Notes under the pieces: model-generated
The model's input: only the letters and a program-made list of their open reading frames with translations
Told to the model about the DNA's origin: nothing
Database searches by the model: none
Shown: piece by piece, positions 577 through 46,135 of the stretch
Numbering within the stretch: position 1 is the first letter of the stretch
How the letters are laid out: each line of letters opens with the position of its first letter
Source: an uncultured Flavobacteriaceae bacterium
GTDB lineage: Bacteria; Bacteroidota; Bacteroidia; Flavobacteriales; Flavobacteriaceae
Direction of reading: 5' to 3'
Length of the DNA: 64,000 nucleotides
Assembly (NCBI GenBank): GCA_947494695.1
Contig: CANLWB010000003.1
Span: 62,001-126,000, forward strand
Made by a program: the position numbers and the translations under genes

Positions 577-3500
577 TTAATTTTTTATTAATTTAAATTG
601 TTTCACTTCATCATTCAAAGTAACATTCACAACATATACGCCTGTGGGTAACTTATCCATTTCACGAATATTTATTTCATAAAAGCTACCTCTTTTTGCA
701 CTTGATATTTTTAAATCAAGGATACGCTTTCCTAAAATATTAAACATGCTTATTTCTGGTGACTTGTTATTTTCTATTGTATCTATTCTTAAAGTTACTT
801 CACTTTTGAAAGGATTAGGATAAATATCATCTTTGAAAGCCATTCTTTTTGAAAAAGCACCTTCACATGTAACTCCAGATTTTACCTCTACAAGATCTCC
901 ACCTTCAGCAGAAATTGTGAATGATTTATTTGTTGTTTCCAAAACCTCTTGTCCATTAACCAAAACCTGAAAAGGAGCTGTTCCTTCTGAAATATCTACT
1001 GCAACGACACTTGATTTAACTGAAGTCATTTTAGCTGTAAGTGTCTCCGCCTCTTCAATTCTTAAGTTAAAACATTGCTCGATACCACTATCTGTATTTG
1101 TAATACATAACTCATATGAATTAGGAGTTAAATTTTCTATAGTTATTGTTTCATTAAAATTATTATCGACACCATTAATACTAGCTGTATATGTCCCCAT
1201 ATCTTCAGCTGCAATTTCAACCATACCATTATCTACACCAGGACATGTTTGCCCTGTGACCTTTATGGTATATTTTTCATCTCCAACAGCCCGTTGGCTT
1301 ACATCTAGAAGTAGTACATCCTCTGGTTTCATAACAAATCCATTCTTCAATTCCAGACCGTTTACCATATTTTTAATAGTTAATCTTGAACTGCCAGATA
1401 AGGTCAAATCAATTGTTGCATCTGTGATACCTAAATTAATTAATGCCACAACATTTCTCCCATTATTCATTAATACAGAACGGTGCATTACGCCCTGAAA
1501 ATCGCCTCCTTGTGTATTGACTTCTTCCACTTTTACAACAGGACTAATTCCCATACTTTCAATTTCTGAAATGGCTCTAGTTGCTAAATCTGAGGTTGAA
1601 GCAGTTACTAACTTACCTCCTCCTGCAGTTAATTGCACACTTAGATTTCTTCCATATTCATCTTTAAGAATACTACCACTATCCATTATTATAGTGCCCC
1701 CATTATTCAGATAGGTTTGTAAAGCATTGAATTCCTCAGTCGTTACATGAGGCGTATTTCTAATTACAATGGTGTTCCAATCTCTATTATTTTGAGTATT
1801 AATAATGTTAGCTGTGGCGAATCCTACTTTATAATCATAGAAAAATAAATCTCCATATAACTGTTGAATTTCACCATCCATATAATCTGAATTATTTATA
1901 GCAGACGTTTCAGAATAAAATACTCTTATAGGTCTATCCATATCTTGAAGTCTTGATAGCTCTTCGCCATGTGCAGTCATTTCTAACATAGCTAAATGTG
2001 TAGTGTTAAGGGTTTGTGGCATCATATCAACATAAGCAACACCTCCAGATCTTAAAACACCACCAGAGTTTCTTCCCCATTCCCAACTATTTACAATATC
2101 CATACCTTGAATAACTGCAAACCAATGCACAGCGTTAAGGTAAGATGGCTCCAAAAACAAATTTCTAAATCTTCCCCAACCTGTGAAACCAGATTCTGAA
2201 TTATAATTAATAGCATTGGGTAAAATTGAAGATAAAAAGTCATAAGTCATTGCTGTATTTCTCCATTCTAATGCATACGTATTCGCCCAGTAACCGGATA
2301 CTGATGCGCCATCCCAAGCTTCAGAATTAGCGGAGTTTGCATCATTTCCTATAATTGTACTTGTTGCGGTTAAATGTTCGAAATCTAAACCATGTATACG
2401 ACCATCTTGAGACCACATATTAGGTATTAATTTTAAATGTGTTTTTGCATTTGTGTCGTGTGTTTTTATTGTGGTTCTTAAAAAATCATACCAATCATTA
2501 ACTCGCTCTTGATTGAACCGTACCAAATCATACCAACGTGGCGTACCCTTAGTGGTTAAATTAGAAATAGGTGTTTGAAACGAGTTCCCTACTTCTGTAA
2601 AATCGGTAAAACTTGTTCCCCATAATGTATTTAAAGTAGCTATATCGCTATGTTTATCGCTTAACCAGGTTCCAAATTTCGCTTTTGTATATGGGGTGGG
2701 ATCTACCACAGCCCATGTTCCATTTATATTCCAGTGGGGCTCGTTAGTTAAAAGGTATCCTAATTTGCTATTGTTACCTTCTTTCATTAGTGGCACGACC
2801 AATCTAAAGAAATCTTCATGAAACTCTCTAGCTTTTGGGTGATCTATATCAAAGCCCGTATGCAAACTAAATCCATCTTCAATCTCAGGATAGTCATTCT
2901 TGATATAATCAGGTACCACAACATTTCTTTGAGCTAAAAAACCTAAGCCAAAATCTCCAGGTTGTGGCAATCCTTCCAAAGTACTTTTAGTGAATGCTTT
3001 TAAAACCACCTCATCTTGGGCATTTTTTTCCATATCTACAGGACGAATAAAAGCGCCTCCTATACTTCCAAAATATTCTTTTAGATTGATGCTCCCTGCT
3101 CGTTCTGGTTTAAATACCCAATCTGCTAAAAATACAGGATTTCCATCTTGTTCTATTCGTGTACCATTAATATCTAACTTCGTATAATCGGGATTAAAAG
3201 TTGCTTTTCTTACAATCTCACCAGCTATTACTTTGGTAAGCGTTTCTATTCCTAAATCTAGGAGTTTAACCACTTCTGTACGTTCAAATTCTGGAAGAAA
3301 CTCTGCCAATTGGCGGTCTGTATAATTATCGCTAACTCCTTTTGGTAAAGCTATCTGACTAGCAAAAATAGTTTCATTATAATCAATGCTATTTTCATCT
3401 TTATCGGCGTAATACAAAAACACCTCTGCTACTTGAACACTCATTTTTTCTCGTGTGGCATCTAAACCTTCATTTTCAGCAGATGTAATTAAAGCATTAA

Positions 3501-3609
3501 GTTCGTCCATTTTAGTCAATGCTGTTTCTTTGGTTGTTTGAGCAAAAACAGTATTGACTATTAATAGCATTACAACTGTTTGGAAAATGTAGTTTTTCAT
3601 TAATTTCAT
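577..3609 (-). CDS. T9SS-secreted clan GH-A glycosidase, GH42/GH167-like (copy B)
   Basis: 1010 aa. Seen: a signal peptide ending VFAQ (about residue 24); a helical N-terminal domain (about 25-150); a TIM-barrel region with LLTNEPHWN (candidate acid/base Glu near 290) and NYNSESGF (candidate nucleophile Glu near 471); a Rossmann-like trimer-type segment with NNGGTIIMDSGS (about 620-660); two beta-sandwich domains; and a C-terminal type A sorting domain starting YPNPF. NEP plus NSE on barrel strands 4 and 7 is the clan GH-A pattern, and the layout resembles GH42 and the related GH167 (exo-beta-carrageenase) family. It is a tandem duplicate of 4627-7662, clearly above 80% identical by eye. The C-terminal tag implies export by T9SS to the cell surface or medium. 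Exact CAZy family and bond cleaved are inferred. Confidence 0.75.
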   Translation of the reverse strand: MKLMKNYIFQTVVMLLIVNTVFAQTTKETALTKMDELNALITSAENEGLDATREKMSVQVAEVFLYYADKDENSIDYNETIFASQIALPKGVSDNYTDRQLAEFLPEFERTEVVKLLDLGIETLTKVIAGEIVRKATFNPDYTKLDINGTRIEQDGNPVFLADWVFKPERAGSINLKEYFGSIGGAFIRPVDMEKNAQDEVVLKAFTKSTLEGLPQPGDFGLGFLAQRNVVVPDYIKNDYPEIEDGFSLHTGFDIDHPKAREFHEDFFRLVVPLMKEGNNSKLGYLLTNEPHWNINGTWAVVDPTPYTKAKFGTWLSDKHSDIATLNTLWGTSFTDFTEVGNSFQTPISNLTTKGTPRWYDLVRFNQERVNDWYDFLRTTIKTHDTNAKTHLKLIPNMWSQDGRIHGLDFEHLTATSTIIGNDANSANSEAWDGASVSGYWANTYALEWRNTAMTYDFLSSILPNAINYNSESGFTGWGRFRNLFLEPSYLNAVHWFAVIQGMDIVNSWEWGRNSGGVLRSGGVAYVDMMPQTLNTTHLAMLEMTAHGEELSRLQDMDRPIRVFYSETSAINNSDYMDGEIQQLYGDLFFYDYKVGFATANIINTQNNRDWNTIVIRNTPHVTTEEFNALQTYLNNGGTIIMDSGSILKDEYGRNLSVQLTAGGGKLVTASTSDLATRAISEIESMGISPVVKVEEVNTQGGDFQGVMHRSVLMNNGRNVVALINLGITDATIDLTLSGSSRLTIKNMVNGLELKNGFVMKPEDVLLLDVSQRAVGDEKYTIKVTGQTCPGVDNGMVEIAAEDMGTYTASINGVDNNFNETITIENLTPNSYELCITNTDSGIEQCFNLRIEEAETLTAKMTSVKSSVVAVDISEGTAPFQVLVNGQEVLETTNKSFTISAEGGDLVEVKSGVTCEGAFSKRMAFKDDIYPNPFKSEVTLRIDTIENNKSPEISMFNILGKRILDLKISSAKRGSFYEINIREMDKLPTGVYVVNVTLNDEVKQFKLIKN

Positions 3610-3659
3610 AATTTTTTCACACTAAAACTTTAGAATTTTCTAAAGTATTTAATTTCACA

Positions 3660-3872: not shown

Positions 3873-4571
3873 TTAGTTTGTTTGAAAACTCCAAACCTGT
3901 CCTATTGATTTACCTCCATTTCCGTCTTTAACAATTACTTTCCAGTAATAAGTAGTAGTTGGAGATAATGTAACATTCATCTTTTTTTCAGACAAATCAT
4001 TCCCTACTTTCGTTACTGGTGGGTTTGCTGTATCAAAATACACATCATAGATTAATGCATCGTCATCTACATCACTTGTATTCCATTTTAAATCAATCGA
4101 TACTTCTGATGTATTTGAATTATTAGCTGGGGTAACCAATTCTGGTGCAAAAGGCACATGATTTACTTCTCCTTCTCCTTCAGTATAAAATTGATATGTC
4201 TCTGAATATTCCGCAGTTAAACCTTTACTATCTTTTGCTTGAACTCTCCAATAAAATGCTTTACCTTTTTCTAAAGTAATTGTTTTTGTTGTACTTGTTG
4301 CAGCATGAGTTTCTGCATCAGAAAAATCGTTTTTCGCAGCTATTTCTATGGTATAACTCACCTCATCTCCATTAGGGTCTGTTGACGCTCCCCATTGAAA
4401 ATCTAAGGTATTATCTATACATAACAAGTTATTTGTAGGATAGGTTAAAGTTGCAACCTTCTCAGGAGCTTTATTTTCTTCTGGAGTTGGAGTATCATCT
4501 CCACCCCCGCCACAAGAAAACGAGAGTATAAATATTAAGAAGATAAAAGCACTTTTTTTTATTGATTTCAT
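3873..4571 (-). CDS. Surface lipoprotein with two FN3-like domains
   Basis: 232 aa. A lipoprotein signal MKSIKKSAFIFLIFILSFSC is followed by GGGGDD, the Gly/acidic pattern after the lipidated Cys common in Bacteroidota surface lipoproteins. Two fibronectin type III-like repeats follow (about 35-125 and 135-232), each ending in the same kind of strand: AFYWRVQAKDSKG then TYYWKVIVKDGNGG. A clear paralog sits at 42408-43118, and each copy lies directly downstream of a ~1000-aa GH42/167-like T9SS enzyme (56 bp from 4627 here). No catalytic residues are visible. A role as a glycan-binding or scaffold protein partnering the enzyme is inferred from this repeated pairing. Confidence 0.7.
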   Translation of the reverse strand: MKSIKKSAFIFLIFILSFSCGGGGDDTPTPEENKAPEKVATLTYPTNNLLCIDNTLDFQWGASTDPNGDEVSYTIEIAAKNDFSDAETHAATSTTKTITLEKGKAFYWRVQAKDSKGLTAEYSETYQFYTEGEGEVNHVPFAPELVTPANNSNTSEVSIDLKWNTSDVDDDALIYDVYFDTANPPVTKVGNDLSEKKMNVTLSPTTTYYWKVIVKDGNGGKSIGQVWSFQTN

Positions 4572-4626: not shown

Positions 4627-7600
4627 TTAGTTTTTAACTAATTTAAATTGTTTTACTTGGGTATCTAAAGTAACATTGACAACATATACTCCTGTAGGCA
4701 ATTTATCCATTTCACGAATATTAATTTCATAAACCCCGCCTCTTTTCTCACTTGATATTTTTAAATCAAGGATACGTTTTCCTAAAACATTGAACATGCT
4801 TATTTCTGGTAACGCCTTATTTTCCCCTGCATCTAGTCTTAAAGTTACCTCACTATTGAAGGGATTAGGATACGTTTCTTCTTTAACAGTCATTCTTTTT
4901 GAAAAAGAACCTTCACATGTAACTCCAGATATTACCTCAACAAGATCGCCTCCATCTGCAGAAATTGTGAATGATTTATTTGTTGTTTCCAGAACTTCTT
5001 CACCATTAACCAAAACCTGAAAAGGAGCTGTACCTTCTGAAATATCTACTGCAACAACATTTGATTTCACTGAAGTAATTTTAGCCGTAAGTGTCTCTCC
5101 TTCTTCTACTCTTAAATTAAAACATTGCTCAACACTATTATCTGTATTTGTTATACATACTTCATATGAATTAGGAGCTAAACCTGATATAGTTGTCGTT
5201 TCTGTAAAGTTATAATCTGTACCATTAATACTAGCCGTATAATTACCTGTATCTCTAGCTAAAACTTCAACCATACCATTATCTTTATCTGGACATGTCT
5301 CCCCAGTAACCTTTAGGGTATAACTATCATCACCCATATAAAATTTGCTTACATCAAGAAGTAAAACATCTTCTGGTTTCATAATAAATCCATTGTCTAA
5401 TTCTAGACCATTTACCATATTTTTAATGGCTAATTTCGGATTTCCAGATAAAGCCAAATTAATTGTTGCATCTGTAATCCCTAAATTAATTAACGCTACA
5501 ACTTTTCTCCCATCATTCATTTGTACTGAACGACACAGTACACCTTGAAAATCACTTCCTTGGGCATTTACTTCTTCTACTTTAACAACAGGTTTAATTC
5601 CTAAACTTTCAATCTCTGAAATGGCTCTGGTTGCTAAATCTGAGCTTGAAACAGTCACTAACTTTCCTCCTCCAGAAGTTAATTGCTCACTTAGATTTCT
5701 TCCATATTCATCTTTAAGAATACTGCCACTATCCATTATTATAGTACCGCCATTATTCAGATAGGTTTGTAGTGCATCGAATTCATGAACCCTTACATGA
5801 GGGGTATTTCTAATGACAATGGTGTTCCAATCTTTATTATCTTGGGTATTAATAATGTTGGCTGTAGCGAATCCTACCTTATAATCATGGAAAAATAAAT
5901 CCCCATATAACTGCTGAATTTCACCCTCCATGTAATCTGAGTTATTTATAGCAGATGTTTCAGAATAGAATACGCGTATAGGCCTGTCCATATCTTGAAG
6001 TTTTGATAGCTCTTCGCCATGCGCTGTCATTTCTAGCATAGCTAAATGCGTGGTGTTAAGTGTTTGTGGCATCATATCTACAAAACCAACACCTCCAAGT
6101 TTTAAAATACCACCAGAATTTCTTCCCCAACTCCAAGTATTTACAACATCCATACCTTGTATAACTGCCAACCAATGCACTGCATTTATGTAGGATGGCT
6201 CCAAAAACAAATCTCTAAACCTTACCCAGCCCGTGAAACCGGATTCTGAATTATAGTTAATGGCATTGGGCAGAATTGAAGATAAAAAATCATAGCTCAT
6301 TGCTGTATTTCTCCATTCTATTGCATAAGTATCCATCCAATAAGTGGCTGTTGCTGCACCCTCCCAAGCTTCAGAATTAGCTGCGTTTGCATCATTTCCA
6401 ATAATAGTACTAATTTGAGTTATATACTCAAAATCCAAACCATTTATACGGCCATCTTGAGACCACATATTAGGAATTAACTTTAAATGTGTTTTAGCGT
6501 TTGGGTCGTAGGTTCTTATTGAGGCTATTAAAAAATCATACCATTCATTAATTCGCACTTGGTTGAAACGTACCATATCATACCAACGCGGCGTCCCTTG
6601 AGTAGTTATATTGGAAATAGGTGTTCGGAACGTGTTCCCTACTTCGGTAAAGTCGGTAAAACTTGTTCCCCATAATGTATTTAAAGTAGCTATATCTCCG
6701 TGTTTGTCACTTAACCAAGTTCCAAATTTAGCTTTTGTATATGGCGTGGGATCTACCACGGCCCATGTACCATCTATATTCCAGTGGGGCTCGTTAGTTA
6801 AAAGATACCCCATTTTACTATGGTTGCCTTCTTTCATTTGTGGCACAACCAAACTAAAGAAATCATCATGAAACTCTCTAGTTACCGGGTGGTCTATATC
6901 AAACCCAGTATACAAACTAAATCCATCTTCAATCTCAGGGTATTCAGCCTTGATATATTCAGGTACAGCAACGTCTCTTGAGGCCAAAAAGCCCAGGCCG
7001 AAATTCCCTGGTTCCGACAACGCTTCCAAAACATTTTTGGTATGCCCTATTAAAGACACCTCGCCCTGAGCATTTTTTTCCATATCCAAAGGACGAATAA
7101 ACGCACCTCCTATACTTCCAAAGTATTCCCTCAAATCAATATCTCCTCCAGCAGTTCTTGGTTTAGATACCCAATCTGCCAAGAAAACCGGATTTCCATC
7201 TTGTTCTATACGCGTCCCATTAATATCTAACTTTGTATAATCAGGATTAAAAGTTGCTTTTCTTACAATATCACCAGATATTACCTTGGTAAGCGTTTCT
7301 ATTCCTAAATCAAGGAATTTAACTACTTCTGTACGTTCAAATTCAGGGAGAAGCTCAGCCAATTCGCGGTTTGTATAATCACCCCTAACTTCCTTTGGTA
7401 AAACTGCCTCACTAGCAATAACGGTCTCATTATGATCAACGTTAATTTCATCTCTATCCGCATAATATATAAACACCTCTGCTGCCCTAACACTCATTTT
7501 TTCTCTTGTAGCATCAAAACCTTGGTTTTCTGCCGAAGTAATTAAAGCATTAAGTTCGTCAATCTTGGTTAATGCTGTTTCTTTAGTTGTTTGTGCAAAA

Positions 7601-7662
7601 ACAGTATTCACTATTAATAACATTACAACTGTTTGGAAAATGTAGTTTTTCATTAATTTCAT
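4627..7662 (-). CDS. T9SS-secreted clan GH-A glycosidase, GH42/GH167-like (copy A)
   Basis: 1011 aa, the tandem partner of 577-3609 with the same domain order: signal peptide ending VFAQ, N-terminal helical domain, TIM barrel with LLTNEPHWN (Glu near 290) and NYNSESGF (Glu near 472), trimerisation-like Rossmann segment, beta-sandwiches, and a T9SS type A tag beginning YPNPF. It starts 8 bp after the stop of the GH43/117-like gene at 7670, so the two are co-transcribed. Homology with copy B continues through the stop codon: the 20 bp at 4608-4627 and at 559-578 are identical. This supports a segmental duplication rather than independent acquisition. The activity inferred from the neighbourhood is removal of beta-linked galactose or carrabiose-type units from a sulfated galactan. 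Confidence 0.75.
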   Translation of the reverse strand: MKLMKNYIFQTVVMLLIVNTVFAQTTKETALTKIDELNALITSAENQGFDATREKMSVRAAEVFIYYADRDEINVDHNETVIASEAVLPKEVRGDYTNRELAELLPEFERTEVVKFLDLGIETLTKVISGDIVRKATFNPDYTKLDINGTRIEQDGNPVFLADWVSKPRTAGGDIDLREYFGSIGGAFIRPLDMEKNAQGEVSLIGHTKNVLEALSEPGNFGLGFLASRDVAVPEYIKAEYPEIEDGFSLYTGFDIDHPVTREFHDDFFSLVVPQMKEGNHSKMGYLLTNEPHWNIDGTWAVVDPTPYTKAKFGTWLSDKHGDIATLNTLWGTSFTDFTEVGNTFRTPISNITTQGTPRWYDMVRFNQVRINEWYDFLIASIRTYDPNAKTHLKLIPNMWSQDGRINGLDFEYITQISTIIGNDANAANSEAWEGAATATYWMDTYAIEWRNTAMSYDFLSSILPNAINYNSESGFTGWVRFRDLFLEPSYINAVHWLAVIQGMDVVNTWSWGRNSGGILKLGGVGFVDMMPQTLNTTHLAMLEMTAHGEELSKLQDMDRPIRVFYSETSAINNSDYMEGEIQQLYGDLFFHDYKVGFATANIINTQDNKDWNTIVIRNTPHVRVHEFDALQTYLNNGGTIIMDSGSILKDEYGRNLSEQLTSGGGKLVTVSSSDLATRAISEIESLGIKPVVKVEEVNAQGSDFQGVLCRSVQMNDGRKVVALINLGITDATINLALSGNPKLAIKNMVNGLELDNGFIMKPEDVLLLDVSKFYMGDDSYTLKVTGETCPDKDNGMVEVLARDTGNYTASINGTDYNFTETTTISGLAPNSYEVCITNTDNSVEQCFNLRVEEGETLTAKITSVKSNVVAVDISEGTAPFQVLVNGEEVLETTNKSFTISADGGDLVEVISGVTCEGSFSKRMTVKEETYPNPFNSEVTLRLDAGENKALPEISMFNVLGKRILDLKISSEKRGGVYEINIREMDKLPTGVYVVNVTLDTQVKQFKLVKN

Positions 7663-7669: not shown

Positions 7670-9934
7670 TTATTCTATTATCACTTTACATATTGATTTT
7701 ATGCCATCAGAATTTTTAACTTCTATAATGGTCTCTCCCTTTTTTAGCGCATATACTTTGCCTAAAACTTGATCTACCTCTGCCACTTCATTGTTTTTTG
7801 TAGACCAGAATATTTTTTTATGCCATGTGTTTTCAGGAAGTACTTCTGCACTTAATTCGTAAGTTTCTCCAACTTTAAGTTTAATGATACTATCTGAAAT
7901 ATTAATAGCGTTTGCTTTAACAAAAGGTCTATCCAATTCTACTTCTTTCAAAGTACTTTGTATTTTGCTTTCCCAGTCTTTATCCTTTGGTAGTAATGTT
8001 AAATTAAATCGGTAAGCATCGTCTGTTGTTAATTGTTTATTTGGTATATATTCTAACTCAACAACCCCATACCCTTTAACAAATTTTTCTACAGAATTAT
8101 ATGGTTTCCAGGTAGTGGTATTATGCATCCCAAGGGTAATCCTTCTTTCTTGAGCACATTCATATTCAATTTTCACTTTTACCTTCTGAGATTGTGGTAT
8201 AGAATCGGGCAAATTATGTGTGTAAATGACATCTGTTTTGGGCTGTCCTAAAGTGTGAACATCCAAATCTTTAAATCGGGCAAGATTTAAACGGTTTTCA
8301 TTTAAAGACGATGCTACAGCACCTACATAAAACTCACTGCGTAAGTCTATAGTCGTTTCATCTATTTTCTCCCAATTGTACATATTAGTTTGTGAGATAT
8401 ATGTTGAAATTTTATTATCCTGTTTTACCATTCTAATCCAGTAAGGTGCTACTAATTTTTTTGAAATAATGGTTTTAGCTATTTTACCTGCTCTTCTATC
8501 TAAACTAAATCCTTTATTTTTTTCTATAGTAGCATATAGCGATTTTGAATTGGGTTTTAAATTCTGACGAAACATTAAGCCTGCTTTAATAGCGCCAGAG
8601 GTAACATCATGAGACATTATTAAAGTGCTTGCAACTACATCTCCTGACATTTTTTTGTAAACAAACCGACATGCATCCTTTTTTTTATTAAATGAATTCC
8701 CTGAGGCTTTTACCCTAATGGTATTAAACTCTTCACTATACCCTGTATTTCCTTTTATTTTAGGGCTCCCTATGTCAATGGATTTCCATTCTGCTGGGGC
8801 TGGTGTAGCATCAGCTTTTGCATGTTCTTCATCTAAAATTGCTTTCATATGCTTACCAAAACCATCACCATCAAAAGGAACTACAATGACTTTACTACCG
8901 TGATTATCATTTCCACCATCTACCCCTTTAAACACATCTATTACGGAGAAATTAAAATGACTTATTCCTCCATCTTCTACATATACTGTGGGACGCTGAA
9001 CCGTATACCATTCATCTACATCACCATTAGTGTATCTAAAAATCCCAGCATCATGCTGAAAAGCCATTCCTCTGTTTTTCCAGTTATGAATACCATCTTC
9101 TGACGTTAAATGATACGTTTCGTCAGTTTTCTCATAATAATTGACCACAACATGATACAGTCCATTACTATACCAAATCGTTGGGTCTTCCATATACTTT
9201 TGTGGCACACCAGGTAAGTCTCTCCAAACAGCCTCTCCCATAATTTTATATGGCCCTAAAATGCCATTATCACTAATTAATGGTGCGCACCATCTGGCCA
9301 TCATCATATACCGATCATCTGGTCTCCTAATAATCATCACATTAGCCATGCGATGTGGCGGATTATTATATCTTGTTAATCCTTGTCTGTACCCATTAAG
9401 GTCTGTGGTAAATTCACCATGAAATTTAAATGGACCATATGGGTTTTCAGAAACAAACACCTCTCCTCTAGTTATTTCACTAGTTATCATGGCATATCTA
9501 CCATCATGCATTTTTAGGCCAATAGTGTTATGCGCTCTCCCTTCCCACCAGTAAGGCCATGTCATCCCTAAATCTTTATAAGGCCCTATAGGCTTATCTG
9601 CAATAGCATGCATTGCTTTTGAGTTTATTCTCCAACCGGTACTATGATGATTCTTTTGATCCCATCTACTGGCATACATATGGTATTTACCTTCATCATC
9701 TTTAACAATGCTGCCATCCCAGTAACACCAGTTTTTCATACTAGCATCTTCCAAACCGTTTGAGATATCTCTTGGCATTAAAGATTCATCACCCCAAGTA
9801 TCTCCAAATTTTACTAAGGTAGTTTGCGGCTCCATGGGTAAAAAGAAGTCTTTTAAAGTTTTTTCTTGAGCTGTGCTCATGCATACGGAGAATAAAATTA
9901 GAGCTTGAACCAGATACCATTTATTAAAATTCAT
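7670..9934 (-). CDS. Secreted GH43/GH117-like five-bladed propeller glycosidase with C-terminal Big_2 domain
   Basis: I chose the Met giving MNFNKWYLVQALILFSVC, because it begins a clean signal peptide ending STAQ; an in-frame ATG 21 bp upstream (9955) would only add a polar tail. The catalytic half (about residues 25-350) shows YWDGSIV (candidate base Asp), MEDPTIW (Asp of the middle blade) and QRPTVY, the spacing expected for GH43/GH117-type propellers. A beta-sandwich follows (about 400-560), with SLDRRAGK and WIRMVKQ. The C-terminus (about 685-754) is a bacterial Ig-like Big_2 domain (LKVGETYELSAEVLP). There is no T9SS tag. It overlaps functionally with the partial gene at 1-550, and a decayed paralog lies at 13400-14076. 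In a galactan PUL an exo-alpha-anhydrogalactosidase or galactosidase role is plausible but not shown. Confidence 0.7.
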   Translation of the reverse strand: MNFNKWYLVQALILFSVCMSTAQEKTLKDFFLPMEPQTTLVKFGDTWGDESLMPRDISNGLEDASMKNWCYWDGSIVKDDEGKYHMYASRWDQKNHHSTGWRINSKAMHAIADKPIGPYKDLGMTWPYWWEGRAHNTIGLKMHDGRYAMITSEITRGEVFVSENPYGPFKFHGEFTTDLNGYRQGLTRYNNPPHRMANVMIIRRPDDRYMMMARWCAPLISDNGILGPYKIMGEAVWRDLPGVPQKYMEDPTIWYSNGLYHVVVNYYEKTDETYHLTSEDGIHNWKNRGMAFQHDAGIFRYTNGDVDEWYTVQRPTVYVEDGGISHFNFSVIDVFKGVDGGNDNHGSKVIVVPFDGDGFGKHMKAILDEEHAKADATPAPAEWKSIDIGSPKIKGNTGYSEEFNTIRVKASGNSFNKKKDACRFVYKKMSGDVVASTLIMSHDVTSGAIKAGLMFRQNLKPNSKSLYATIEKNKGFSLDRRAGKIAKTIISKKLVAPYWIRMVKQDNKISTYISQTNMYNWEKIDETTIDLRSEFYVGAVASSLNENRLNLARFKDLDVHTLGQPKTDVIYTHNLPDSIPQSQKVKVKIEYECAQERRITLGMHNTTTWKPYNSVEKFVKGYGVVELEYIPNKQLTTDDAYRFNLTLLPKDKDWESKIQSTLKEVELDRPFVKANAINISDSIIKLKVGETYELSAEVLPENTWHKKIFWSTKNNEVAEVDQVLGKVYALKKGETIIEVKNSDGIKSICKVIIE

Positions 9935-10027
9935 TTTTTGAGTATACATTACCATTATTAATTAACTTATTTAAATCTTGTATTACGATGCTATTTAATT
10001 AGGAATACCAAAATATTTAATAACAAA

Positions 10028-13095: not shown

Positions 13096-13380
13096 TTATT
13101 CAAGATGTTTTATTTCTATATTATTTTCTTCTGCCATATCTTTTGTTTGATAGATCATAAACTCAAAACTATCTGATTCATTTTTGTAGATATTTATACC
13201 AAAACGCCTTTATCCACCATGGCACGAGCAGAAGCTATAACCTTTCCTTGCGTTACAAATTAGAGAAATTTTTATTTCTGCATTTGATTTACCAACATTT
13301 ACAACAGATAAAACATCATGACTTTTTCTGTTTTTAACAACCTTCCAAATACATCCTTTTTTATCAGTTTTCTGTCTCTC
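13096..13380 (-). pseudogene. Relics of PUL genes: GH42/167-like C-terminus, GH27 fragment and an unknown tail
   Basis: Minus-strand translation of about 13380-13265 gives KKGCIWKVVKNRKSHDVL followed by SVVNVGKSNAEIKIS. This matches the C-terminus of the 772-aa paralog at 39892 (KKGCVWRVVKNKKGREVL, SIVNIGKTDAEVSI). Immediately after, 13241-13205 reads VIASARAMVDKGV, matching VIASAKAMVDKGL of the GH27 at 37119-38723. The last part (13206-13096) is an open 35-codon tail with FEFMIYQTKDMAEENN that I cannot place. Frames change between the pieces and none has a start, so these are decayed, fused fragments. Confidence 0.7.
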
Positions 13381-13399
13381 CTCATTTTAAGACATATAA

Positions 13400-37118: not shown

Positions 37119-38723
37119 CTAATAGTTCTCAAGTATTCGTATTAAAATAACGCCATGAGGTTGCACTACTGCAGAAAAACTATCTTCGTAAAACCCAATG
37201 TCTTTTTGCCTCCATAAATCCCTTATTGTTTTTGCGCCTTCAATCTTCAGGTCATTCCAATTTAAAGTGATAGTTTGTTTCGTGTTTTTTAAATTAAATA
37301 GACCAACTGCTTTTGTTCCATCTACTAATTCTTTTACTATTATTTCAAAACCTTCATTATGGATAATGGATTTGCCAGCTACCCCCTTTTCATCTTGATT
37401 GACATCTAAAACTTCAGAGTTGGTTAAAAGCTTAACGGTGAATTCATCCATTCTTTCAATAGGGCAGCCTATAAGTAAAGGCGCAGCCCATAATGACCAT
37501 AATGATAAGTGAGAATACTGCTCATCTGCTGTTAAACGTGAGGGAATTGGATTTTTACTTTTTGTATTTACTTCTCCAACTACCAACATATCAGGGTCTG
37601 GAAAATGTCCGGGAGCTCCACTAAAACCATTCTCCATCCATGGTCTATGCGCTTTCCATACATCCATTATGCTTTTATGAATACCCTTACCATCCCATCG
37701 GTCTTTTAAATCACCATAGGTTCTAAAACAGTTTACATGCTTACCAAATAAACTGGCATGCTCTAAAGGTGCGGTATTAGAAATGGAATAAATAATATCT
37801 CTCCCACTATTTTCTAATGCTTTTGCCATTCTTAATGTACTAGCAGGCTCATTTGGGTTCCAATCGTATTTTAAATAATCTATTCCCCATTCTGCCCATT
37901 GAGCAGCATCATTCTTATCAAAAGTATACTGTCCTACTTTTGTATACATCCTATTAGATCTTAAATCTCTATCATCCATAGTTTTATCCCAAAAGCCATT
38001 TTCTAAATCGCTGGAACCTCCCGCTCTACCGGCATAGGTAGTAATCCAAGGTGAGGAATAAATACCTACTTTTAATCCCATATTGTGAATCTCATCACAC
38101 ATAGAAGCCATATTTGGAAATTTAATAGAATCGGCTAAAATAGCATTGTGTTTTCCTCCTCTATGAGATTGCCAACCATCATCCATATTGATATAAGACC
38201 AGCCATAGTTTTTAAGCCCTTTATCTACCATAGCTTTAGCCGATGCAATTACATTTTCCTGGGTAACATATTCTCCCCAACAATTCCAACTATTCCACCC
38301 CAAAGGCGGTGTTAAACAAATAGTTTCTCCTACCTTTATTTTAAAATTCTTCGTAGCTATTCCTAGGTTATTATTAGCAACTAATGTTACTTGATAATCT
38401 TTCAGATCTTCATTTTTAATAACACCACTAATCACTCCTGTCTTGCTATTTACAGCTAAACCTTCTGGTAAATTTTCAACCGAAAATTCTAAAATTGAGT
38501 TTCCTGTAGCTGGTATTGTATATAAAAAGGGGGAATTGGGACGAACACCAAAAACAGAAGGACCGTGAATTTTTGGTAAGCCTCCATCCTCTGGTGTTAA
38601 AATATATTTACCTTCTCCTGTTTCTGGATTATAAGTCTTGGTTTCTATATGTTCTCCACACGAAACAATAATTAAAAAAACCGTTAGTTGTAGCACCTGC
38701 TTTATGGCGTTTTTCATATTCAT
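37119..38723 (-). CDS. GH27-family alpha-galactosidase with N-terminal putative-Ig domain, lipoprotein
   Basis: 534 aa. The leader ends LIIVSC, a lipoprotein. Residues about 45-130 form a cadherin/He_PIG-type domain (SVENLPEGLAVNSKTGVISG). GH27 proper begins with LTPPLGWNSWNCWG and INMDDGWQ, with YLKYDWN carrying the nucleophile (Asp287) and FRTYGDLKDRW the acid/base (Asp338, in the place of the Asp of RNFADI in human alpha-galactosidase A). A C-terminal antiparallel sandwich ends the protein. It is predicted to release alpha-linked galactose with retention. It is transcribed towards the sulfatase operon, and its upstream region has an exact copy of the shared 13-mer. Confidence 0.9.
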   Translation of the reverse strand: MNMKNAIKQVLQLTVFLIIVSCGEHIETKTYNPETGEGKYILTPEDGGLPKIHGPSVFGVRPNSPFLYTIPATGNSILEFSVENLPEGLAVNSKTGVISGVIKNEDLKDYQVTLVANNNLGIATKNFKIKVGETICLTPPLGWNSWNCWGEYVTQENVIASAKAMVDKGLKNYGWSYINMDDGWQSHRGGKHNAILADSIKFPNMASMCDEIHNMGLKVGIYSSPWITTYAGRAGGSSDLENGFWDKTMDDRDLRSNRMYTKVGQYTFDKNDAAQWAEWGIDYLKYDWNPNEPASTLRMAKALENSGRDIIYSISNTAPLEHASLFGKHVNCFRTYGDLKDRWDGKGIHKSIMDVWKAHRPWMENGFSGAPGHFPDPDMLVVGEVNTKSKNPIPSRLTADEQYSHLSLWSLWAAPLLIGCPIERMDEFTVKLLTNSEVLDVNQDEKGVAGKSIIHNEGFEIIVKELVDGTKAVGLFNLKNTKQTITLNWNDLKIEGAKTIRDLWRQKDIGFYEDSFSAVVQPHGVILIRILENY

Positions 38724-39891: not shown

Positions 39892-42171
39892 TTACTTACC
39901 TATAATCTCAACAAAATATACTTCATGAGGCTTTATTTTTGGTGTAGAACTCACTTCTACTCCATCAATAATATCTACACACGCAAACTTGTCTTTATTT
40001 TTTGACCATATAGATACTTCAGCATCAGTCTTACCAATATTTACAATTGACAAAACCTCTCTTCCTTTTTTATTCTTCACAACGCGCCATACACACCCCT
40101 TCTTTTCTGCTTGATTATTTTCTTCTACTATGATATTAGAGGTTAAACCTTTATCTTCAATAATACTTAGTGCTTTTTCCTTTATGTCTTCAACAGTATC
40201 TAATATTATTACATTTCCCGAACTTGATTTTAAAGTTTTAGTAAACGGAATACCATATTCATCATGCTTCAGGCTATTAGAATCCGTAATAACAATTCCT
40301 CCTTCATTAACATAATTTTGAATTTCATCAAACTCATTTTGAGTAACATATGGTGTTTTATATATTAGCATTGCATCCCAGTTGTCATGATTCTGCTTTT
40401 GCAAAATGTTTTTGGTAGCAAATCCTAGTGGGATACCTTCAAAATGCATAGATTCGTATAAATGAAAGAGGTCATCCATATGCTCTTTTTTATTTATTGC
40501 TGATGCTTTTGAATAATAAATACGAAGTGGTTTTCTTTGGCGTTGTATTGCCATAATTACCTCTGCATTGGCATTTAAATCAATTAAAGTGGTTGCAACT
40601 TCATTAGTTACTCTAGGTTGTTGACTATTTGAACCTGCATAACCTTTGCCTGTATAGCTTATTTCGCCATCTTCTAGTCGTGGCCAAAACCATATTTGAC
40701 TCGCCGTCATACCATACATATGTGCTAGCCAAAACGTTGCTCTGGCATATTGAGGGTCTAAATACAAATTCCTCGAGCTTCCAGTTGACAAATAATGTAA
40801 TTCCGAATTAAAATTGATTTTTTTTGGGCTTACCGATTTCATAAAATCAAATCCCATGCATAATTCTCGCCATTCAAATGCATAATTCTGTTCCCATTCC
40901 TTAGGTGCGCCCCACATTCTGGAATGGGCTGCTCCTGAATCATTTCCAACTACCCCACTTATTTCGGTAAGTTTTTCTAAATCAATTCCATGTACTCTTT
41001 GATTCTCAGTCCAAAGATTAGGCATTATTTTAAGATGTACTTTTGCATCTTCATCATATTTTAAAATTTCCGATTTTAAAAATTGATACCATTCTGTCAC
41101 ACGATGCATGTTAAAAAGCGACCAATCGTACCACATTGGGGTTCCTTTGTGCTTAGTATCTATTGGAATTTCTATTTTTATTGTTTTAAAATCGGAAAAA
41201 TTAGTACTCCACAAAGTATTAAGTTTGTTAATGTTTTCGTGTTTTTCTTTCAACCAATTCCTAAACTTATCCTTTGTATATTCTGTAACGGGTCCTGATG
41301 CCCAACCTAACTTATCTCCAGTTTTTTGTGTATAAAAGTGTGGTTCGTTGCACAACATATAACCTAATTCAGAAAATTTTCTATTTGCAGTATGTGGCAC
41401 TACAGTTTTAATTAGTTTTCTTTGAAAATCTCTTGCTCCTGGACTATCAATATCGTAAACCGTATATCTATCTGTTGGCAGAACTAGTGAATCTCCATAC
41501 TTACTAAGTGCCCAATTTGGTGCGGTTTTATGATTCATAAAGATAAACCCCAGTGATCCGTCAAACTTATTGACGAGTTTGTCATGAATTTTAGGTATCA
41601 AGCTTCCATCCTTTTTAATATATGCTGGTGTCATGAAAAACCCATCTAGATGACCATGATATTCAGTCAGCTTTTTTGTGTTTCGCTTCCAAACGTAATC
41701 CGTTACAAATACAGGTCTATTTTCAAAAATTAGTTGATCTCCTTCTACTGATATCTTTTTCCAATCGATCATTGGAGAAGGTTGTCTAAAGACCTTTCCC
41801 TCTATTAATAATTGCAGATGCGCTATAGCTTCTTCCAGCATCAACAAAATGTCTTTACGCTCAAAATCAGGAAGTTCTTTTGCCATTTTCAAAGCTTCCT
41901 CTTTATATATAGGGGCTTTTTTAAAGAAACTCACATTTTCATCAATATGCTTTGCATCCCAATCGGCATAGGTTAAAAATATTTCTGCTGTTCTTACTGT
42001 CGTTTTTTCTTTTAAAACATCAATATCATTTTTTTCTGCTATTTTAATGAGTTTCTCTAGTGTTTCTATTTTTTCTTCTGCCAGCTTCTCTAGTGATTGA
42101 GCACCAATAAACGTTGTTGATATTAAAAAAATGTATAATAACTTTTTCTTAAATGTTTTTGCGAGTATCAT
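39892..42171 (-). CDS. Secreted clan GH-A glycosidase, GH42/GH167-like, short form (copy C)
   Basis: I prefer the Met that begins MILAKTFKKKLLYIFLIS, giving a standard signal peptide ending FIGAQ; in-frame Met codons 18 and 39 bp upstream (42189, 42210) would place a polar tail before it. The helical N-terminal domain, TIM barrel with MLCNEPHFYT (acid/base Glu) and NFNSELHYLS (nucleophile Glu), and Rossmann-like segment with NEGGIVITDSNS align with the ~1000-aa copies. It stops at the first sandwich, so it lacks the extra Ig-like domains and the T9SS tag. It should therefore be periplasmic rather than surface-exported. A planned division of labour with the long copies, outside then inside, is inferred. 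It has its own upstream region of about 200 bp. Confidence 0.78.
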   Translation of the reverse strand: MILAKTFKKKLLYIFLISTTFIGAQSLEKLAEEKIETLEKLIKIAEKNDIDVLKEKTTVRTAEIFLTYADWDAKHIDENVSFFKKAPIYKEEALKMAKELPDFERKDILLMLEEAIAHLQLLIEGKVFRQPSPMIDWKKISVEGDQLIFENRPVFVTDYVWKRNTKKLTEYHGHLDGFFMTPAYIKKDGSLIPKIHDKLVNKFDGSLGFIFMNHKTAPNWALSKYGDSLVLPTDRYTVYDIDSPGARDFQRKLIKTVVPHTANRKFSELGYMLCNEPHFYTQKTGDKLGWASGPVTEYTKDKFRNWLKEKHENINKLNTLWSTNFSDFKTIKIEIPIDTKHKGTPMWYDWSLFNMHRVTEWYQFLKSEILKYDEDAKVHLKIMPNLWTENQRVHGIDLEKLTEISGVVGNDSGAAHSRMWGAPKEWEQNYAFEWRELCMGFDFMKSVSPKKINFNSELHYLSTGSSRNLYLDPQYARATFWLAHMYGMTASQIWFWPRLEDGEISYTGKGYAGSNSQQPRVTNEVATTLIDLNANAEVIMAIQRQRKPLRIYYSKASAINKKEHMDDLFHLYESMHFEGIPLGFATKNILQKQNHDNWDAMLIYKTPYVTQNEFDEIQNYVNEGGIVITDSNSLKHDEYGIPFTKTLKSSSGNVIILDTVEDIKEKALSIIEDKGLTSNIIVEENNQAEKKGCVWRVVKNKKGREVLSIVNIGKTDAEVSIWSKNKDKFACVDIIDGVEVSSTPKIKPHEVYFVEIIGK

Positions 42172-42341
42172 CTTGTTGTTAAAATTCATATTTGGAATGT
42201 ATACCCCCAAAAGAACTACTTATTTAGTGCTTAAATGTATCCAGTAGTTAATTATATGTTACTTTCAGTTTATTATATTAATTAAGGGTGTATTGGGTCT
42301 GTATGAAGTCAACTTTTCAACCAATATTAGATATAAAAGAG

Positions 42342-42407: not shown

Positions 42408-43118
42408 TCAATTAGTTTCGAAGCTCCATATTTGTCCTATAGATTCACCTCCTTTTCCGTCCTTAACTACAACTTTCCAATAGTAAGTTGTTGCTGCGCT
42501 TACGGATACATTCTTTTTATTATCAGATTGGTTATCTCCTACTTTGGCAACTGGAGGATTAGCTGTATCAAAATAAACATCATAAGTTAAAGGGTCATCA
42601 TCAACATCAGTTGCGTTCCAAATTAAATCAACCGAGCCACTTGAAACATCCGTCCCATTTGTAGGCGATACTAATACAGGTGAAAAAGGTAAATGATTCT
42701 CTTCGGCTTCTCCTTCTGTATAAAATTGATATACTTCTGAATATTCACTTTTATTATTCTTACTATCTCTTGCTAATACTCGCCAGAAATAGGCACTACC
42801 TATATCAAGAGTAACAGATTTTAAGGTTTCTTCTCTTAAAGTAAATGTCTCGGCATCTGAGAAATCATTCTTTGTGGCTATTTCCAACACATAAAATACG
42901 ACATCTCCATTGGGATCGGTACTCTCTCCCCATTCAAACTCTATTGTATTATCTATACACAATAAATTATTTGTTGGATATGTCAATATCGTAACTTTAT
43001 CTGGAGCTTGTTCTGCTTCTGTTGCATTATCCCCTCCGCCTCCACATGAAAATATTACGGTAGCGGCAAAAACTAATACTGTTGTTCTAAAAACGTCTAA
43101 CTCTTTCATCGTTATCAA
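42408..43118 (-). CDS. Surface lipoprotein with two FN3-like domains (paralog of 3873-4571)
   Basis: 236 aa. The leader ends TVIFSC followed by GGGGDN; Met4 (MKELDVF) is a likely start. Two FN3-like domains have the same conserved pieces as the paralog: TYPTNNLLCIDNT, DPNGDVV, AYFWRVLARDSKN, then NATDVDDDPLTYDVYFD and TYYWKVVVKDGKGG. It starts only 5 bp after the stop of the 1003-aa enzyme at 43124, so the two are certainly co-transcribed. This is the tightest example of the enzyme/lipoprotein pair. The N-terminal Cys and acidic tail suggest surface display. The function is unknown, probably glycan or enzyme binding. Confidence 0.75.
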   Translation of the reverse strand: MITMKELDVFRTTVLVFAATVIFSCGGGGDNATEAEQAPDKVTILTYPTNNLLCIDNTIEFEWGESTDPNGDVVFYVLEIATKNDFSDAETFTLREETLKSVTLDIGSAYFWRVLARDSKNNKSEYSEVYQFYTEGEAEENHLPFSPVLVSPTNGTDVSSGSVDLIWNATDVDDDPLTYDVYFDTANPPVAKVGDNQSDNKKNVSVSAATTYYWKVVVKDGKGGESIGQIWSFETN

Positions 43119-43123
43119 TTTAT

Positions 43124-46100
43124 TTATTGCTTTACAATTTTTATATTAACTGGTCTTTCCAATAATAACTCTATAAAATAAATACCATCTGGTTTTCCTT
43201 CTAAATTTAAGTTTACCTTTCCTGAATCTACTGGATATACTTCTGAAGAAATAATTTGCGATTGTAGACCATAAATATTTATTGGAACATCCGTTACTGA
43301 TATTGGTATGTTTAGTTCTATAACTCCTGATGTTGGATTAGGGTATGCCTTTATGCTATCCAAAAAATCAATATGCTTCGTCATTAGCCCTTCACAATCT
43401 ACATCGGTCTTTATCTGTACTTCATCTCCTTGATTCACCTCTATATCAAAAGATGTTGCACTGGTTTGATAAGTAACAGTATTATTAATTAGAACCGTGT
43501 ATGGGGCTGTTCCTTTTTCAACTTCAACTGTCATGGTTTTAGACTTACCATTTACTTGTGATTTGCCAGAAACAGAAGGAGCTTCTTTTATTTCTAAATT
43601 ATAACACTTATTGATCGAAGACCCTACTACAGCTATACATAATTCGTATGTTCCTGGTTGTATATCCTCTAGTGTAATTTCTTTTGTAAAACTTGTATTA
43701 GTCCCGTTAAAGGTTACTACATAATCTTGCTCTATATCTGCAACAATGTTTATCGTCCCATTATTTTGATCTGGACAAGTTTCACCAGTAGTAGTAATAG
43801 AGAATCTATTATCTTCAACCGTACGCTCTCTTACCGAAAACAAATAAACTGTTTCTGGTTGTATCGTAAAATTGCTATCTAATTTCTCTCCATTCAACAA
43901 ATTGGTACAAACTAAGGTACTACTGTTTCCTTTTAGTTTAAGGTCTAATGTAGCCTCCGTTTTTCCAATGTTGATGATATTAATTATGTTTTCATCATCA
44001 TCGCTAACATAACTTCTCCATACGCAACCTTTTTCACCTATGCCATTCGTTTCTGCTAATGTAAAAGTAGGTGAATGCCCCTTGTCATTTATTAAGTTAA
44101 GTGTTTTTGTAGTAAAATCTTCTACTGATGATGCGGACAACAATACACCTCCATTATTAGTATTTAAGCTTTTATTTAAACTTCTTCCGTATTCATCCTT
44201 TTTCAAACTAACAGCATCTATAATAACTGTTCCGCCATTATCCAAATACAATTGTAATGCATCGAATTCTGCTTCGGTAACATATTCTGTTTTGAAAACT
44301 GCAATAACGTCCCAATTTGAGTTTGGATGGTTTTTAATAATTTTCTCTGTTGCAAATCCTATAGATTGTCCTTCGAAATATAATGACTCATAAAGATCGA
44401 ATAGGCCACTCATATGATTGGGCTTATTTATTGCTGAAGTTTCCGAATAGAACAAGCGTATGTGTTGCTTAATATGCTGTAAAGCCGCTATGTGCTCAGA
44501 ATTTGCATTCAAATCCATGAAGGTTTCATGTAATTCGAACACTGCTTTTGGTTGTTGAGCAAAAGAACCTGAAACTTCAAATTCATTACTACTATAAGCT
44601 CCATCAGTAGTTCTTGGCCAATACCATGATCTAACAGAATTCATTCCCTGAAGTACAGCGTGCCAATACACCGATCTTACGTATGAAGGATCTAAGAACA
44701 AATCGGTAAATCCTCCTGACTGTATAAAATGTCCCTCAGAATTATAATTAACTTTATTAGGAGATATAGACCTAAAAAAATCGTAAGGCATCGCAAAATC
44801 AGCCCAAAAATAATGATAACGATCTTGCCAAGGTTTTGGAGCTCCCCATCTCAATGAATTTTTAGCCCCTCCATCATTACCTATATTTGTAGTCATTTCT
44901 GTAAGTGCTTCAAAATCCAAACCATGGTGTCTACCATTCTCAGACCACATTCCCGGAATTACTTTAATGTGCGTCTTGGCATCTGGATCATGCTTTAATA
45001 CTTCGTTATTAAAAAACTTGAACCAATTTGTAATTCGGTACTGATTGAACTTCATAAGATCATACCATATGGGCTTTCCTCGTTCGGTTGCCGCAATTGG
45101 GAAATTTTCTATTTCTACATCATCAAAACTGGCAAAATTCTTGCCCCACAATGTATTAAGATTACTTACATCTAAATGCTTGTTTTTTAACCAATCTCTT
45201 AAACTGTCCTTAGCATGCTCTGAAAATTGAACCACTTCCCATGTACCCGATAAATTCCAATGTGGTTCGTTTGTAAGCATATATCCTTGTTTAGTATAAT
45301 TTTTCCCTTTTACCAAAGGAACAATACCAGCACAAAGCTTTTCTATTACCTCTCTAGACCCAGGGCTACTTATATCATAAGCAGTATAATATGCCCGTCC
45401 CGTCTCAATATCTGGGTATTTTTGAAGCAACCAATCTGGGGTCCTTCTATGTCCGAAAAAGAATGTTCCAAAATTACCACTAGACTTTGTAGTGAGTTCA
45501 TTTCTTAGCCATGGTACTATATCTCCATTTTCGTTTGAGACATGTTTGGGATCCACAAATCCTCCCCCATAGTCCCCAAAATAATCTCCAAGTCTATATG
45601 GTCCAGCAGTGGCTTGTTGTGAATTATAATCTGCTAAGAAAACAGGCTTTCCATCAAACATCATTTGATTCCCATCATAAGATATTTGGGACCAATCAAC
45701 CTCAGGTATTGGGTTTCTAACAATATCCCCATTAATAACTCCTTCTAGTGTGGCTATAGATTCTTCTAAAACCGTTATTACAGCACTTCGCTCATAAGTA
45801 GCCAGGTGTTCTGCCAATTTTTCTGGAGTGGTCTCATGAAAATTATGTAAACCATCAAACATTGGCACTAGGGTAGATTTATTATCTTCATCCCACTTAG
45901 CGTAAAACAGAAATACCTCGGCTAATCTTATGGCCATTTTTTCTTTGAGCGCATTAAAGCCTTCATTTTCGGCTTCTGTTATCAACGCCTGCAATGTGCT
46001 CATCTTTTCCAGAGCCTGTTCTTCAGTACCCGTAAAATCTTCAATATTAATTTTTGGCACTCTTACTTGAGCAATACTGAATTGACTTAGCGATAAAAGC

Positions 46101-46135
46101 AAAATCAATCCATACATTCTTATTATTTTTCTCAT
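43124..46135 (-). CDS. T9SS-secreted clan GH-A glycosidase, GH42/GH167-like (copy D)
   Basis: 1003 aa. Signal peptide ending QFSIAQ; helical N-terminal domain (TLQALITEAENEGFNALKEK); barrel with MLTNEPHWNL (acid/base Glu near 290) and NYNSEGHFI (nucleophile Glu near 466); Rossmann-like segment NGGTVIIDAVS; sandwiches with TTGETCPDQNNGTI; and a sorting tail from YPNPTSG. It is more diverged from copies A and B than they are from each other, sharing features such as WYWPRTTDG with copy C, so it is an older paralog. It is the outermost gene of the PUL on this side. Upstream lies 530 bp to the tRNA. Confidence 0.75.
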   Translation of the reverse strand: MRKIIRMYGLILLLSLSQFSIAQVRVPKINIEDFTGTEEQALEKMSTLQALITEAENEGFNALKEKMAIRLAEVFLFYAKWDEDNKSTLVPMFDGLHNFHETTPEKLAEHLATYERSAVITVLEESIATLEGVINGDIVRNPIPEVDWSQISYDGNQMMFDGKPVFLADYNSQQATAGPYRLGDYFGDYGGGFVDPKHVSNENGDIVPWLRNELTTKSSGNFGTFFFGHRRTPDWLLQKYPDIETGRAYYTAYDISSPGSREVIEKLCAGIVPLVKGKNYTKQGYMLTNEPHWNLSGTWEVVQFSEHAKDSLRDWLKNKHLDVSNLNTLWGKNFASFDDVEIENFPIAATERGKPIWYDLMKFNQYRITNWFKFFNNEVLKHDPDAKTHIKVIPGMWSENGRHHGLDFEALTEMTTNIGNDGGAKNSLRWGAPKPWQDRYHYFWADFAMPYDFFRSISPNKVNYNSEGHFIQSGGFTDLFLDPSYVRSVYWHAVLQGMNSVRSWYWPRTTDGAYSSNEFEVSGSFAQQPKAVFELHETFMDLNANSEHIAALQHIKQHIRLFYSETSAINKPNHMSGLFDLYESLYFEGQSIGFATEKIIKNHPNSNWDVIAVFKTEYVTEAEFDALQLYLDNGGTVIIDAVSLKKDEYGRSLNKSLNTNNGGVLLSASSVEDFTTKTLNLINDKGHSPTFTLAETNGIGEKGCVWRSYVSDDDENIINIINIGKTEATLDLKLKGNSSTLVCTNLLNGEKLDSNFTIQPETVYLFSVRERTVEDNRFSITTTGETCPDQNNGTINIVADIEQDYVVTFNGTNTSFTKEITLEDIQPGTYELCIAVVGSSINKCYNLEIKEAPSVSGKSQVNGKSKTMTVEVEKGTAPYTVLINNTVTYQTSATSFDIEVNQGDEVQIKTDVDCEGLMTKHIDFLDSIKAYPNPTSGVIELNIPISVTDVPINIYGLQSQIISSEVYPVDSGKVNLNLEGKPDGIYFIELLLERPVNIKIVKQ

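Follow-up and report, generated by a model that had tools for sequence, protein, structure and literature searches.

Two kinds of carrageenan system have described relatives of the locus reported here. The structurally characterised BovGH167 from Bacteroides ovatus (6ptm) releases beta-neocarrabiose, according to the accessible part of its description, and the GH167 enzymes of Pseudoalteromonas and Paraglaciecola kappa/iota loci (PS47 GH167, Ph1657) belong to the same family. The accessible text of Gobet 2018 gives the P. carrageenovora GH167 as 61% identical to the characterised P. hydrolytica enzyme. A further structure, 9whd from Wenyingzhuangia aestuarii, has the family fold and a T9SS-like C-terminal piece; a literature search found no published paper on it. 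The lambda-carrageenan cascade of P. distincta U2A (JBC 2025, PMC12549532) is said, in the available portion of that report, to have no enzyme in common with the kappa/iota cascade; it uses GH150 and no GH167. The combination of GH150 and GH167 in one locus has already been published for the CarPUL of a ruminant Bacteroides xylanisolvens MAG (PMC13168452), which differs from the present case in its Bacteroides host and in also carrying GH16_17 and GH82; a T9SS clade is not discussed in its accessible text.

The window, a stretch of 64,000 nucleotides from an uncultured Flavobacteriaceae bacterium, shares the lambda-carrageenan markers GH110, GH2 and an S1_8-like sulfatase with P. distincta U2A, as far as the available portion of that report goes. 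For GH167 and GH150 the two differ, with GH167 present here and GH150 not found. The annotated parts of the locus all lie on the minus strand:

577..3609, minus: GH167 of clade X, with a signal peptide, GH167 module, about 150 aa without a Pfam match and a T9SS tail
3873..4571, minus: small FN3/Ig lipoprotein between two GH167 genes, 61% paralog of 42408
4627..7662, minus: GH167 of clade X, T9SS tail, 82% identical to 577
7670..9955, minus: 761 aa protein with a Big_2 domain, no family given
13267..13383, minus: relic, C-terminal piece of a 39892-type GH167
13411..13981, minus: relic of a 7670-like gene
14240..15889, minus: putative surface glycan-binding lipoprotein (from its position after SusD)
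15902..17638, minus: SusD-like protein
17651..20767, minus: SusC-like TonB-dependent transporter
20851..22770, minus: GH110 alpha-1,3-galactosidase-like protein
23449..27585, minus: hybrid two-component regulator (HTCS)
27699..29153, minus: S1 sulfatase, CxPxR motif, nearest solved relatives S1_20
29164..31620, minus: GH2
31639..33993, minus: GH2
34006..35538, minus: S1 sulfatase, CxPxR motif, nearest solved relative S1_8A
35542..36960, minus: S1 sulfatase, CxPxR motif, nearest solved relatives S1_20
37119..38723, minus: GH27-like alpha-galactosidase
39892..42210, minus: GH167 of clade Y30, no T9SS tail, probably periplasmic
42408..43118, minus: small FN3/Ig lipoprotein between GH167 genes
43124..46135, minus: GH167 of clade X, T9SS tail

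Four GH167 enzymes and their relics

The intact genes at 577, 4627, 39892 and 43124 encode proteins of 1010, 1011, 772 and 1003 aa, respectively, and are GH167 by sequence and fold. A phmmer search of the PDB with 577, 39892 and 43124 returned BovGH167 (6ptm) and 9whd as top matches (E-values of 3.8e-135 to 7.5e-233); these three have full-length similarity to characterised GH167, and 4627 is covered by its identity to 577. The catalytic part of 577, the one modelled of the four, was predicted with a pLDDT of 89.8 and fits 6ptm with a TM of 0.90/0.95 and an rmsd of 2.1. The model has the GH167 architecture of a helical N-terminal domain, (alpha/beta)8 barrel, domain B and beta-sandwich C, and the accessible description of BovGH167 likewise includes a helical N-terminal domain. 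The NEPH and NSE motifs are invariant across the aligned paralogs, and their glutamate columns are numbered, by the chain count used here, two below the E295/E472 given in the part of the published account that is available. By analogy with the GH167 family, these glutamates would be the catalytic pair of a retaining clan GH-A mechanism.

The first-pass annotation had described four intact GH42/GH167-like paralogs with these motifs and a helical N-terminal domain. The genes and motifs are where it placed them, the helical domain is present in the 577 model, and GH167 is the correct side of the family label. Pfam GH42 matches of 28.5-41.7 bits exceeded the cut-off of 21 but were partial, and against GH42 structures the 577 model reached a TM of about 0.5 at 13% identity; GH42 was rejected as the nearest family. 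The genome has five such Pfam matches, the four paralogs and one at C3:354813 that does not match the GH167 profile.

T9SS sorting tails passed the Pfam threshold in 577, 4627 and 43124, with the 43124 tail falling below the cut-off of the NCBIfam model (19.6 vs 23 bits), and the Pfam search found none in 39892. The three tailed enzymes are equipped for secretion to the cell surface, whereas 39892 is probably periplasmic. The outside/inside division proposed earlier is supported and characterises whole clades, with tails in 20 of the 22 scanned members of the clade of the tailed copies (X) vs 0 of 27 members of the 39892 clade (Y30). The extra Ig-like domains once assigned to the exported copies did not appear in the Pfam search, which matched no family in the stretch of about 150 aa that precedes the tail.

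The genes 577 and 4627, 82% identical, are a local duplication under purifying selection; six comparisons gave dN/dS values of 0.07 to 0.20. Four copies had been called unusual dosage, a view that did not hold up: at least four GH167 matches occur in 14 of 50 genomes chosen for carrying GH167, or in 9 of 50, by hand count, without matches under 600 bits. A family-wide estimate of copy number was dropped; at most two candidates were scored per genome, and many matches covered the C-terminal module only. A fifth paralog surviving as a C-terminal fragment near 13.3 kb is real, though small. It spans 39-45 aa of C terminus around 13383-13249 (minus strand) and is 56% identical to 39892 and 67-73% identical to L010, L008 and L007, making the 39892 type its nearest relative and not the T9SS type. 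Just upstream, at 13981-13411 (minus strand), about 180 aa of a 7670-like gene remain at 69-75% identity. The GH167 relic indicates that copies also get lost. Together with the duplicated 577/4627 pair, the relic could fit redundant duplicates without distinct roles, chance survivors in an unstable locus, but the low dN/dS, the three lineages that remain separate and their consistent tails all argue otherwise, and this explanation is very improbable.

Clades and gene neighbourhoods

The GH167 tree was built with FastTree from 131 rows, 7 duplicates or fragments being omitted from 138 sequences. Of 129 GH167 places, 123 were carried and six weak or partial ones excluded, and genomes were searched for 50 of 60 loci. 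Clade X (31 rows) contains 577, 4627 and 43124, clade Y30 (30 rows) contains 39892, and clade K (26 rows) contains the P. carrageenovora enzyme. All four window copies lie outside clade K, the clade of the kappa/iota-locus enzymes, which share the family and, judged from the P. carrageenovora relative, the catalytic motifs with the window but are GH127-linked in other bacteria and rarely near GH110. The 9whd enzyme sits in a six-row clade, sister to that of 39892, where NEPR replaces NEPH. BovGH167 also falls outside clade K, in a separate small clade. It shares the four-domain fold of the GH167 module and the catalytic glutamates with the window copies, which it matches over that module only, at 33-47% identity, and it lacks the tail. 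Its identity to 39892 is 47%, vs 38% for the P. carrageenovora enzyme. Columns separating K from Y30 were considered as specificity determinants, an idea given up since BovGH167 has the same residue as Y30 at many of these positions. An obligate pairing of X and Y30 found no support (Y30 in 14 of 20 X genomes vs 27 of 45 overall, Fisher p 0.36).

The clades differ in their neighbours. GH110 was found within 25 kb of 15/30 X, 21/28 Y30 and 1/24 K members, and GH127 within the same distance of 0/30, 2/28 and 10/24, giving 36/58 vs 2/58 for X and Y30 together; the genomes are related, so the counts are not independent. Labels were ignored below 58 bits for GH110 and below 270 bits for GH127, and L023 and L037 were merged to one place, neither true place having a GH110 or GH127 label. 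Within the 12 genomes holding both K and X/Y30, GH110 lay near X/Y30 only in nine and near K only in none, with three ties. For GH150, the lambda-carrageenase family, two proteins of P. carrageenovora assumed to belong to it served as queries, the second matching in 21 of 25 sets; 23 of the 50 genomes were searched, as well as the window's own genome and a plasmid. A match lay within 30 kb of 11/18 Y30, 6/23 X and 2/16 K members in the searched genomes, and in 16/27, 3/20 and 0/3, respectively, of the fetched loci. The contrast among neighbours sets GH110 and GH150 against GH127, that is, galactan without vs with 3,6-anhydro-galactose, rather than following sulfation pattern, the axis suggested in the first-pass annotation. 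An operon of GH110, SusC, SusD, a 14240-like gene, GH167 and the FN3 lipoprotein recurs in L010, L011, L013 and L076.

The probable target glycan

A link to galactans, part of the first-pass annotation, is supported by the family and by the GH110, GH2, GH27 and S1 sulfatase neighbours. The chances are about even that the GH167 copies act on a carrageenan-type galactan lacking 3,6-anhydro bridges, different from the substrate known for the family, and pass their products to GH110. In the scheme inferred here for substrate, attack mode, product and step order, the two lineages that travel with GH110, and not with the anhydro-galactosidases GH127/GH129, would cut beta-1,4-galactosidic bonds in such a D-galactan, of the lambda family or precursor-like. 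The exported 577, 4627 and 43124 would act at the cell surface beside the SusCD importer and the periplasmic 39892 on imported oligosaccharides. Sulfatases would first clear the chain end; if the known GH167 exo mode is kept, the product would then be alpha-1,3-galactobiose, which GH110 would split.

Several observations count against this scheme. BovGH167, a beta-neocarrabiose producer in the accessible part of its report, lies outside clade K and closer to 39892 than the P. carrageenovora enzyme does, and, given its Y30 residues, the clades may have one specificity in common and differ in context only. The window's own genome matched neither GH150 query, and the lambda-carrageenan pathway elsewhere needs GH150. 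Two of the three sulfatases (27699 and 35542) are nearest S1_20 (3-sulfate), with S1_15 structures, the 6-O-sulfatase type of the lambda cascade, far lower in their PDB match lists. About half of the X members and a quarter of those in Y30 have no GH110 within 25 kb, and 13 of 24 K members have neither GH110 nor GH127 as a marker.

The four could instead be ordinary exo-beta-carrageenases, releasing beta-neocarrabiose from desulfated kappa/iota/beta-type carrageenan as BovGH167 and PS47 GH167 do, with an incidental neighbourhood. The family, catalytic glutamates and fold, and the closeness of 39892 to BovGH167, are what this account would expect, but the neighbourhood holds GH110 and an S1_8-like sulfatase, and none of the six GH16 matches in the genome is on contig C3. 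No GH127 match was found in the genome (control search positive) and none for GH129 (control silent there, profile matching 10 of 50 other genomes) to split beta-neocarrabiose, although Pseudoalteromonas lacks both too, according to the accessible part of Gobet 2018. Both GH110 matches of the genome lie in this region. Such ordinary carrageenases are unlikely, if the strongest competitor to a role on non-anhydro galactan.

Upstream of the GH167 locus lie GH29, GH95, GH88-like, GH2, GH110, GH36-like and S1 genes, fucosidase-like ones included, and the fucosidase- and GH88-like genes suggest that the target glycan may be more complex. It could be a mixed galactan other than carrageenan (e.g., branched and sulfated, containing uronic acid and either fucose or L-galactose), on which the GH167s would be general backbone beta-galactosidases, and the two S1_20-related sulfatases would fit. 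The upstream block carries its own SusCD and HTCS, however, and may be a separate locus, and in relatives the GH167 and GH150 context indicates carrageenan; a mixed galactan is improbable.

Possible consequences for GH167 annotation

A broader possibility, tentative and rather doubtful, is that GH167 is not one activity. The two GH110/GH150-linked clades would release galactobiose from non-anhydro carrageenan or depolymerise it, and the T9SS clade would replace GH150 at the surface where GH150 is missing. If true, GH167 clades would connect the kappa/iota and lambda cascades, a link so far missing, and would be a candidate for surface attack in bacteria with GH110 and S1_8 but without GH150, a point raised for Zobellia in the accessible text of Gobet 2018. 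The GH167 loci collected include none from Zobellia, and the candidate may not apply there. If the two clades serve non-anhydro galactans, substrate prediction from CAZy families in marine and gut bacteria would have to be made clade by clade.

The protein at 7670 has no PDB match and a poor model (pLDDT 47). A gene of its type adjoins clade-X GH167 in L007 and L008 as well.

Four GH167 paralogs and a relic

The paralogs, all on the minus strand and named by their start coordinates in the window, share the locus with two relics.

577, minus strand: GH167 paralog
4627, minus strand: GH167 paralog
7670-9955, minus strand: 761 aa protein with a Big_2 domain
13.27-13.38 kb: GH167 relic, the C terminus of a 39892-type gene
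13411-13981: relic of a 7670-like gene, preceding the GH167 relic
39892, minus strand: GH167 paralog
43124, minus strand: GH167 paralog

The first-pass annotation had called these enzymes GH42/GH167-like, and GH167 is the family that holds. The sole strong PDB-sequence matches for the three of four paralogs searched were 6ptm and 9whd, and the predicted model of 577 superposes on both far better than on any GH42 structure. 6ptm is BovGH167, whose activity is described as releasing beta-neocarrabiose (Hettle 2019, PMC6923384). All four ORFs are intact and, across GH167 modules of 33-82% pairwise identity, the aligned NEPH and NSE motifs do not vary. T9SS sorting tails end 577, 4627 and 43124, while the chain of 39892 stops directly behind the GH167 module. 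The earlier description of four intact copies, three of them exported and one short, with a fifth surviving as a C-terminal fragment near 13.3 kb, stands. The C-terminal ~225 aa of the three exported paralogs is a widely reused export module; it matches many long ORFs without a GH167 part in other Flavobacteriaceae genomes.

The 577 and 4627 genes (82% identity, dN/dS 0.20) are a duplication inside the window, since two fetched loci (L007 and L008) have a single gene of this type between the same two neighbours. The earlier view that this dosage is unusual is not supported. Among 50 genomes picked for carrying GH167, matches ranged from 1 to 6 per genome, with at least four in 14 (nine once matches scoring below 600 bits are excluded). 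Five are spread across ~158 kb in F. algicola (G397), and four lie inside ~63 kb in Mariniflexile sp. AS56 (G431).

Genomic neighbours and export across the GH167 tree

In a 131-row FastTree phylogeny, clade X (31 rows) holds 577 and 4627 together and 43124 at another place, 39892 falls in clade Y30 (30 rows), and clade K (26 rows) includes the P. carrageenovora enzyme. Each GH167 was labelled by the nearest strong GH110 (alpha-1,3-galactosidase-like) or GH127 (anhydro-galactosidase) inside 25 kb. GH110 labels 36/58 X and Y30 rows, four of these 58 being from the window, versus 1/24 in K (Fisher p 5e-7, relatedness ignored); GH127 labels 2/58 versus 10/24 (p 4e-5, relatedness likewise ignored). 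The contrast is much alike with limits of 10, 15 and 40 kb. Twelve genomes carry both K and X/Y30 members, and the GH110 difference runs in the expected direction in nine, is tied in three and is opposite in none. The labels need four changes on the tree, and the middle clades are mixed: Y16 has GH110 in 7/14 and GH127 in 2/14, and Y6 has 0/5 and 2/5. At the acid/base motif, NEPR replaces NEPH in all six rows of the 9whd clade (including L107, L117, L122, L124 and L125).

T9SS tails were found in 20/22 X members scanned versus 0/27 in Y30; X proteins have a median length of 1003 aa, Y30 proteins one of 760 aa. A small FN3 lipoprotein directly follows GH167 in 13/22 X cases, two of them the window's own, and in 0/26 Y30, 0/13 Y16 and 0/3 K cases. 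The available passages and listings of the GH167 literature (PMC6923384, PMC12549532, PMC13168452, PMC11748540, PMC8371452, PMC8653839, PMC9676036, PMC11760155) contain no report of a GH110 versus GH127 split or of a T9SS-exported GH167.

A candidate substrate and the place of GH150

Characterised GH167s are described as cutting a beta-1,4 bond and releasing a disaccharide from the non-reducing end (Hettle 2019, PMC6923384). With a galactan lacking anhydro bridges as substrate, the product would be alpha-1,3-galactobiose, which P. distincta GH110B is described as splitting. The GH110 structure 7jw4 is presumably the P. distincta enzyme. The window encodes GH110, GH27-like and GH2 proteins. Its three S1 sulfatases all carry the CxPxR motif; one is closest to S1_8A and two resemble S1_20. 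A search of the window's genome found no GH127. Beyond GH167 family membership, we infer the whole of this mechanism.

GH150 (lambda-carrageenase) was searched with two putative GH150 proteins from the P. carrageenovora plasmid, chosen by length and position and annotated 'PQQ-binding-like' and 'hypothetical'. According to the available text of Gobet 2018, this plasmid carries CglA and another GH150 that neighbours two GH110, GH2 and S1_8. Neither query matched the window's own genome. Among relatives, a putative GH150 lies inside 30 kb in 11/18 Y30, 6/23 X and 2/16 K cases, and 16/27 Y30 cases in the fetched loci have one near. Three loci (L024, L026, L056) share the order GH150, S1 sulfatase, GH110, GH167. 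One clade-X GH167, 3 kb away from GH150 and surrounded by GH2 and GH110, is found in Ochrovirga pacifica S85 (L017); this is probably the S85 strain to which Gobet 2018, in the portion available, refers in connection with a lambda-type locus. The accessible account of P. distincta gives its lambda and kappa/iota cascades no common enzyme (JBC 2025, PMC12549532); the flavobacterial loci differ in having GH167 together with GH150. The co-occurrence itself is not new, since one locus with both was reported earlier in a Bacteroides MAG (PMC13168452, as excerpted).

Because BovGH167, with its classical activity, is nearer to 39892 than clade K is, GH167 context and specificity may have come apart. 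This nearness, the lack of a GH150 match, the two S1_20-like sulfatases and an upstream block encoding GH29, GH95, GH88-like and further GH2 proteins leave about an even chance that the substrate is a carrageenan-type galactan without 3,6-anhydro bridges.

Surroundings of the locus

That block (L001 and L005, positions 22001-62000 of the window's contig) has a second SusCD and a second HTCS, together with GH110, GH2, DUF5703, melibiase-like, GH29, GH88-like and S1; GH95 is in L004. The 7670-type protein (~680-760 aa) is repeated, with a further copy at L001 18490-19998 continuing into window 2-550. It matches neither a catalytic Pfam family nor any PDB entry, adjoins clade-X GH167 in relatives too, and is possibly a new enzyme of the same galactan system. 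A T9SS-exported beta-helix protein (DUF1565) lies within the locus on the plus strand (10828-12756). Just past the last GH167 gene is a tRNA-Leu(gag) (46666-46752), and 11 kb beyond it a tyrosine recombinase (57827-59134); together they mark a possible island border.
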